A stretch of 64,000 bases of DNA from the NCBI GenBank assembly GCA_026387935.1, contig JAPLKU010000003.1, positions 1-64,000 on the forward strand. The letters run 5' to 3'. The first letter of the stretch is position 1. Every line of letters starts with the position of its first letter. This DNA comes from Gemmatimonadota bacterium. GTDB lineage: Bacteria; Gemmatimonadota; Gemmatimonadetes; Gemmatimonadales; Gemmatimonadaceae. The notes beneath the pieces were generated by a model. That model saw only the letters and a program-made list of their open reading frames with translations, was not told the DNA's origin and searched no databases. Position numbers and translations under genes: made by a program. This document shows, one piece after another, positions 18,764-23,614 of the stretch.

Positions 18764-18823
18764 CCCGCCCTGACCCCGCTTGACATCATCCGTTCATCCG
18801 GATAGACTGATGAAAGACAACTG

Positions 18824-18880
18824 ATTCCGTGGCGATTTGGAGGCAAATTGCGGCCACGTAAAACAACCTGCTAAAGCGCC
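18824..18880 (+). promoter_or_regulatory. SAM-II (metA-type) riboswitch aptamer
   Basis: CGTGGC-GATTTGGAGGCAAATTGCG-GCCACG-TAAAACAACCTGCTAAAG: P1 stem plus conserved GAUUU, AUUGC, UAAA and GCUAAA; upstream of metF-metH. Confidence 0.83.
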
Positions 18881-18883
18881 TGT

Positions 18884-18918
18884 CCCGGTGCGCCTCCATT
18901 GGCCCCGGGGTTTTTCGT
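18884..18918 (+). terminator. Intrinsic terminator, putative expression platform of the SAM-II riboswitch
   Basis: CCCGG-tgc-GCC-tccatt-GGC-c-CCGGG-g-TTTTTCGTTTT. Confidence 0.7.
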
Positions 18919-18994
18919 TTTCACCCGATTTCCCGTTTCCTTCCCGTTTCCTTCCCGTTTCCGCGCACCTCCCGCCGTACCGGCACCCGCTCTC

Positions 18995-19864
18995 TTGTCT
19001 TCTCCGTTTTCCGTCTCCTTCGAGTTTTTCCCTCCCAAGACCCCCGAGTCTGAGGAGGCGCTCTGGCGTGCCATCACCCGCCTCGCGCCCCTCGCGCCGA
19101 AGTTCGTCTCGGTCACCTACGGCGCAGGCGGAAGCACGCGGGCGCGCACGCACCGCACGGTCAAACGGTTGCTGGCGGAAACGAAACTCATTCCGGCCGC
19201 GCACCTCACCTGCGTAGGCGCCACGAAGGCCGAACTCGACCAGGTCGCCGATGAGTACTGGGCGACCGGCGTGCGGCAGGTTGTCGCCCTCCGCGGCGAT
19301 CCGCCGGCCGGCGCTACTTCATATGAAGCGACACCAGGCGGCTACGCCTATGCGTCGGACCTCGTCGCAGGACTCAAAGCGCGGCACGACTTCGAAGTCA
19401 GCGTCGCCACCTTTCCTGAAGGCCACCCGGACTCGCTCTCGCTCGACCGCGAACTCGACAACCTCAAACGGAAGATCGACGCCGGCGCGTCGAAGGCGAT
19501 TACGCAGTTCTTCTTCGACAACTGGACCTACCTCAAGTTCGTGGATCGCGCGCGGAAGGCCGGCATCACGATACCGATTCTCCCCGGCATCATGCCGGTC
19601 TCGAACTTTCACACGATGACGAAATTCGCCGCGATGGCCGGCGCCACCGTGCCGCGCAGCATGGCGCCGCTGTTCGAGGGCCTCGACGACGATCCCGAAA
19701 CGCGAAAGCTCGTCGCGGTGACCGTCGCGGCCGAACAGTGCCAGCAGCTCGCCGAGGCCGGCGTGACGGAGTTCCACTTCTACACGCTGAACCGCGCGGA
19801 TCTCACCTACGCGCTCTGTCATATCCTTGGGCTGCGCCCCGTCGCACCCGGCGCGCAGCAGTAA
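18995..19864 (+). CDS. metF: Methylenetetrahydrofolate reductase; start uncertain (TTG at 18995, or 18899)
   Basis: VSFEFFPPKTPESEE, VTYGAGGSTRART, LRGDPP, FFDN, PGIMP. Confidence 0.92.
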   Translation: MSSPFSVSFEFFPPKTPESEEALWRAITRLAPLAPKFVSVTYGAGGSTRARTHRTVKRLLAETKLIPAAHLTCVGATKAELDQVADEYWATGVRQVVALRGDPPAGATSYEATPGGYAYASDLVAGLKARHDFEVSVATFPEGHPDSLSLDRELDNLKRKIDAGASKAITQFFFDNWTYLKFVDRARKAGITIPILPGIMPVSNFHTMTKFAAMAGATVPRSMAPLFEGLDDDPETRKLVAVTVAAEQCQQLAEAGVTEFHFYTLNRADLTYALCHILGLRPVAPGAQQ

Positions 19865-19867
19865 GCC

Positions 19868-23614
<3,747 letters not shown>

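Follow-up and report, generated by a model that had tools for sequence, protein, structure and literature searches.

A SAM-II riboswitch lies upstream of the methionine-synthesis genes metF and metH in a member of the Gemmatimonadaceae, and its sequence suggests a transcriptional OFF switch for both genes. We propose that a two-helix antiterminator competes with an intrinsic terminator that begins seven nucleotides beyond the aptamer's GCTAAA segment, so that transcription probably stops before metF–metH when SAM is high. We give this reading odds of roughly two in three. The locus is part of the window, by which we mean the whole 64,000-nucleotide stretch of DNA that was analysed. The switch is of a known kind; family-wide comparison supports a variant in its wiring.

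The SAM-II aptamer and the genes it precedes

Much is known about the fold of the SAM-II aptamer. Scanning the window with Rfam returned a single family above threshold, RF00521 (SAM-II, SAM_alpha), with a full-length match (model positions 1–79) scoring 49.5 bits against a gathering score of 36 (E 4.1e-8). A sequence-only reading of the same DNA had called a SAM-II aptamer and named this covariance search as its check. The call holds, and on this evidence the region is a genuine SAM-II riboswitch. The P1 stem and the TTT, TTGC and GCTAAA segments can be read directly in the window, and another 121 loci of the family carry them too. TTGC was found in every locus read, although it was also part of the pattern used to find the loci. 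Both pairings of the P2 pseudoknot, AGGC/GCCT and TTGC/GCTAA, are possible in the window. AGGC (18841–18844), part of the P1-loop strand, complements GCCT (18878–18881) to form distal P2, and TTGC presumably pairs with GCTAA (18870–18874) as the P2 core, an assignment that we take from the known fold.

The gene context also fits SAM-II, with the aptamer upstream of methionine/SAM genes. That these genes are metF and metH, as had been read from the letters, is confirmed by the Pfam MTHFR match (E 8e-95) and by five methionine synthase domains (Table 1). We place the metF start at a TTG because MTHFR homology begins there. Genes for methionine synthesis are ones that SAM would be expected to repress.

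As had been claimed before, no Shine-Dalgarno sequence lies beside GCTAAA, nor is there one within the P2 3' strand (GCTAAAGCGCCTGTCCC); the metF start codon is more than 100 nt away. By its sequence, the window aptamer does not appear to be of the translational SAM-II type represented by the Sargasso Sea metX riboswitch (PDB 2QWY). The same aptamer fold is expected in both, but the metX example hides a Shine-Dalgarno sequence and the window has none to hide, its metF start lying at least 100 nt further on. A tiny reading frame inside the loop, with a GGAGG ribosome site and a TTG at 18848, was considered and attributed to chance, since this TTG belongs to the conserved elements of the aptamer. 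Between the terminator and metF (18916–18994) the leader is pyrimidine-rich, carries short repeats (TTTCCTTCCCG) and is likewise devoid of a Shine-Dalgarno sequence. Two relatives (L017 and L018) have different short pyrimidine repeats in the same place.

Table 1. Features of the metF–metH locus, in window coordinates
Feature	Position	Strand	Details
Sigma-70-like promoter TTGACA-N17-TAGACT	18780–18808	+	10/12 consensus matches; one such pair here, shuffles average 0.2
Probable operator ATCCGTTCATCCGGAT inside promoter	18788–18803	+	Inverted repeat ATCCG-N6-CGGAT between -35 and -10
SAM-II (RF00521) aptamer match	18819–18894	+	49.5 bits, E 4.1e-8
P1 5' strand CGTGGC	18828–18833	+	Partner GCCACG 18853–18858; RF00521 consensus structure
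P1-loop strand TGGAGGC, putative antiterminator strand AT1	18838–18844	+	Complements 18892–18898; family-wide loop:platform covariation
TTGC, conserved P2 core 5' strand	18848–18851	+	In every locus read; belongs to the search pattern
GCGCCT, distal P2 3' strand and putative AT2 5' half	18876–18881	+	Coordinates checked on the sequence
Intrinsic terminator	18883–18915	+	Stem 18883–18894/18901–18910, loop 18895–18900, T5 18911–18915
GCCTCCA, terminator inner 5' arm and loop	18892–18898	+	Exact complement of 18838–18844
metF (methylenetetrahydrofolate reductase), probable TTG start	18995–19864	+	Pfam MTHFR E 8e-95
metH (cobalamin-dependent methionine synthase)	19868–23614	+	Five Pfam domains

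A terminator with segments complementary to the aptamer

An intrinsic terminator had been proposed straight after the aptamer, and folding upholds it. The hairpin has a 10-pair stem, TCCCGGTGCGCC(tccatt)GGCCCCGGGG, with a predicted energy of -16.3 kcal/mol, is followed by TTTTT, and stands between aptamer and gene as an attenuator would. This hairpin escaped a strict pattern scan for terminators, presumably because its stem has bulges.

Two segments of the terminator complement strands of the aptamer. The first was already recognised in the sequence-only reading: the loop segment TGGAGGC is an exact 7-bp complement of GCCTCCA in the terminator, which we confirmed base for base and coordinate by coordinate. 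Dinucleotide shuffles put the chance of a perfect complement of at least 7 between loop and platform at 0.016–0.022, about 2%, so the match alone is suggestive and short of decisive. The second had been missed: GCGCC (18876–18880) in the P2 3' strand complements GGTGC (18887–18891) in the terminator 5' arm, a potential antiterminator hairpin that we call AT2. An unconstrained fold of 18819–18920 contains both, the GCGCC/GGTGC hairpin adjoining the TGGAGGC/GCCTCCA helix, at -38.4 kcal/mol. P1 is broken in this fold because free folding cannot hold pseudoknots.

We propose the following switch. Without SAM, GCGCC would pair with GGTGC and, directly after it, the P1 loop would pair with GCCTCCA. 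Together the two adjoining helices would form an antiterminator that uses up the 5' half of the terminator, and RNA polymerase would read through. The antiterminator partners (to 18898) are transcribed before the terminator 3' arm (18901–18910), which would give the antiterminator a head start when SAM is scarce. With SAM, the P2 pseudoknot (TTGC/GCTAA plus AGGC/GCCT) would occupy both antiterminator strands at once, the terminator would fold, and transcription would end before metF. The two folds are mutually exclusive in sequence: both need AGGC, and GCGCCT supplies GCCT to distal P2 and GCGCC to AT2, so SAM binding would remove both halves of the antiterminator. From these sequence relations we infer that SAM binds, that the RNA switches and how much each helix contributes.

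The simple loop/terminator switch of the sequence-only reading is thus plausible and incomplete, AT2 being the missing part. Its idea that the loop acts as anti-terminator stands as far as the conserved complement goes, but blocking must be less simple than sequestering a 5' arm, because 3 of the 7 nucleotides of GCCTCCA belong to the inner 5' arm and the other 4 to the apical loop. Since metF loci have the partner mainly in the apical loop of the terminator, the loop helix may instead block nucleation or be a loop-loop contact, and the latter could coexist with the terminator stem. AT2, unlike the loop helix, does occupy that stem.

The same apical position invites the opposite polarity. If the loop:terminator helix belonged to the SAM-bound fold, extended or kissing, SAM would hinder the terminator and the riboswitch would be an ON switch. 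The guanidine-IV riboswitch is proposed to work in this manner, its ligand promoting a pseudoknot with the terminator loop (PMC10907184; PMC7736828), and its aptamer loop complements the terminator loop as in metF loci. It is an ON switch with a different aptamer, whereas the window pairing is expected in the ligand-free state. We regard this arrangement as highly improbable: the SAM-bound aptamer needs AGGC of the loop to build P2, SAM-II is described as an OFF switch in published work (PMC1273637), and it would be odd physiology for SAM to turn methionine synthesis on.

SAM-II and terminators across the family

SAM-II is nearly universal in the window's family, occurring in 141 of 148 genomes and in all 35 genera. 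A terminator-like hairpin lies within 75 nt of GCTAAA at 112 of the 122 family loci, and 18 of 360 control windows taken from further downstream contain one, so the terminator of the window is conserved among relatives as the sequence-only reading had anticipated. Among named loci of the long-loop form, nearly all from alpha-proteobacteria, the corresponding counts are 61/65 and 27/181.

These counts agree with published SAM-II terminators, and the terminator platform itself is therefore not new. The earlier premise that SAM-II acts on translation and that a terminator is unusual is outdated; terminators after SAM-II have long been known (PMC1273637, PMC2258182, PMC9373788). They are common in proteobacteria (Corbino 2005, PMC1273637; Barrick and Breaker 2007, PMC2258182), and a further study likewise finds SAM-II often followed by a terminator (PMC9481103). 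Together, these four papers rule out a platform unique to this locus. We found no relevant literature on SAM-II in Gemmatimonadota.

Several loci depart from the common layout. The window's genome has a second, weaker SAM-II copy (L002; G000:C18:162657-165731) upstream of panB and a gene for a ThiS-like carrier. It is followed by two successive terminator-like hairpins, each with a loop-complementary segment (GCCGCC/GGCGGC; GCCGCCTAT/ATAGGCGGC). SAM control of panB is unexpected, and the operon may serve methionine synthesis that uses a sulfur carrier. Two loci of the window's genus (L041, L048) keep the aptamer and GCCTCG and have lost a recognisable terminator, whose place other downstream structure may have taken. 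Seven loci of one genus (L028, L057, L066, L075, L091, L100, L110) carry a second GGCGGC, complementary to the loop, and a GGCACTC/GAGAGTGCC hairpin after the terminator, possibly a second platform. In three loci of one genus (L053, L102, L116), SAM-II variants with a GCGG/GCCGC P1 precede metK, and the terminator is further off. A SAM-II aptamer sequence also occurs outside Proteobacteria and Gemmatimonadota, in Pyrinomonas methylaliphatogenes (L205). Two pairs of loci are identical in sequence: L014, from the same family, matches L134 (Gemmatimonadaceae bacterium isolate Chersky.30_11, JADGQU010000103.1), and L032, from the window's own genus, matches L164 (Gemmatimonadetes isolate GL140_4). 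These identities place the window in Gemmatimonadaceae or in its near vicinity.

Different strands covary with the terminator in different loci

We compared the duplex energy of each loop strand with its own platform to that with the platforms of other loci, using swap permutations on 58 loci from 28 genera, a set in which each combination of genus and loop type is represented once. Loop strands score better with their own platforms than with swapped ones (-9.77 versus -8.40 kcal/mol; z -6.2, with 0 of 2000 permutations as good), and z is still -4.7 with one locus per distinct loop sequence (38 loci), in tests that remove shared ancestry only partly and span several paralogous gene families. 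The same swap test yielded no signal in four control regions (linker, 5' flank, 110–152 nt downstream and upstream region). The permutations and these four nulls rule out a composition effect as the source of the complementarity. Across the family the loop also covaries with the P2 3' strand (z -4.3), but such covariation is absent within panB/metX/metZ-type loci (z +0.8).

The loci fall into three types. Type A comprises 30 metF-type loci from two genera, the window included, 28 of them in the metF protein cluster. Type B comprises panB, metX, metZ-like and other loci with GTGGT in P1 (19 genera), and type C consists mostly of metH loci (14 genera). In type B covariation with the platform is seen for the loop (z -3.8), through pairs such as GCCGCC/GGCGGC, GCCGCGA/TCGCGGC and GTCGCG/CGCGAC, and not for the P2 3' strand (z +2.0). 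Type C is the reverse: the platform covaries with the P2 3' strand (z -2.6, p 0.006), which pairs as GCGCC with GGTGC or GGCGC and as GCGCT with AGCGC, and not with the loop (z -0.7). The alpha-proteobacterial type (67 named loci) resembles type C, with covariation for the P2 3' strand (z -3.5) and none for the loop (z -0.8); here loop and P2 3' strand do covary with each other (z -5.9).

Type A loci carry the two pairings side by side, GCGCC/GGTGC adjoining GGAGGC/GCCTCC. A GCCTC platform stands opposite the GAGGC loop in 27 of 30, as against 0 of 40 type C loci, which have other loop sequences; the complementary pair had been expected to be conserved in relatives, and it is. The GCGCY/RGYGC pairing occurs in 25/30 metF-type loci (shuffle expectation 8.8) and 28/40 metH-type loci (10.6). 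Four close relatives (L013, L017, L034, L035) have GCCTCG opposite GGAGGC, and two metF loci (L094, L120) have no GCCTC. Within type A the GAGGC/GCCTC core has no variation that could reveal covariation, and the single variable outer pair is matched in 18 of 27 loci against 14.6 expected (p 0.08). Covariation of TGGAGGC with GCCTCCA, proposed earlier as a check, thus appears family-wide as loop:terminator covariation and is not significant for the exact 7-bp pair among metF loci.

That invariance leaves room for an antiterminator made solely of the P2 3' strand and the terminator arm (GCGCC/GGTGC), with the loop:GCCTCCA match incidental in metF loci. The type C and alpha-proteobacterial loci, where the platform covaries with the P2 3' strand and not with the loop, would fit such an arrangement. 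The co-occurrence of GAGGC with GCCTC (27/30 versus 0/40) argues against it, though a single origin could explain that pattern, and so do the type B loci of the same family, which covary by the loop and not by the P2 3' strand. On balance we think it unlikely and prefer the two-helix antiterminator.

From these comparisons three wirings appear to emerge: the loop with the terminator arm (panB/metX/metZ-type), the P2 3' strand with the arm (metH) and both side by side (metF). We therefore advance, with as much reserve as conviction, a scheme in which Gemmatimonadaceae couple one SAM-II aptamer to the terminator in three ways. One of these would be a pseudoknot exchange, in which the P1 loop pairs with the P2 tail when SAM is present and with the terminator 5' arm when it is absent. 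It would employ the opposite P2 strand from the one used in alpha-proteobacteria, and the metF switch would be a hybrid of the two.

Promoter and possible protein control

A sigma-70-like promoter precedes the aptamer and contains an operator-like inverted repeat (Table 1). This repeat is found upstream of 30 metF-type SAM-II loci in two genera, exact in 27 and with 1–2 differences in 3, while the flanks vary. It fits the ATC-10 nt-GAT form of SahR/SamR sites (PMC4239095). A near copy lies elsewhere in the genome (L252 1-1502), just upstream of a gene for an ArsR-type HTH plus methyltransferase, beside ahcY. Taken together, the form of the site and this near copy make it possible that a SahR/SamR-like repressor acts on the same metF promoter as the riboswitch, and the conserved site suggests additional protein control.

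Such a site could also mean that the terminator is SAM-independent and sets a low basal level, with regulation by the promoter operator or by RNA stability. A precedent is Sinorhizobium meliloti metA, whose terminator after SAM-II is not predicted to be SAM-affected and whose promoter activity itself responds to conditions (PMC9373788). In the window, the terminator begins 7 nt past GCTAAA, segments of it complement the aptamer, and the covariation is family-wide. We consider SAM-independence improbable and retain the SAM-responsive OFF switch.

Relation to known SAM-II systems

A close parallel is S. meliloti metZ, for which SAM-induced termination is predicted and an RNA of ~100 nt accumulates at high SAM (PMC9373788). 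The predicted mechanism is alike; phylum and gene differ. In marine SAM-II/SAM-V tandems (PMC9481103, PMC11508383) a SAM-II unit also stands before a terminator, but the window has no SAM-V unit. In 2007 the way in which the SAM-II aptamer drives transcription attenuation was described as not yet established by experiment (PMC2258182); according to a paper from 2022, effects on expression had not been studied (PMC9373788).

Alpha-proteobacterial SAM-II riboswitches with terminators resemble the window in aptamer, pathway, a terminator just past P2 and a promoter a few nucleotides upstream. The difference lies in the strand that covaries with the terminator: the P2 3' strand in alpha-proteobacteria, the loop strand in panB/metX/metZ-type loci of Gemmatimonadaceae, and in the window both pairings are present. 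This contrast suggests that Gemmatimonadaceae often couple the sensor to the stop signal through the strand opposite to the alpha-proteobacterial one. The comparison yields specific, testable pairings for three wirings of one aptamer within a single family of bacteria. For the evolution of expression platforms it suggests that a constant aptamer can be kept while the strand that does the switching moves to the other side.
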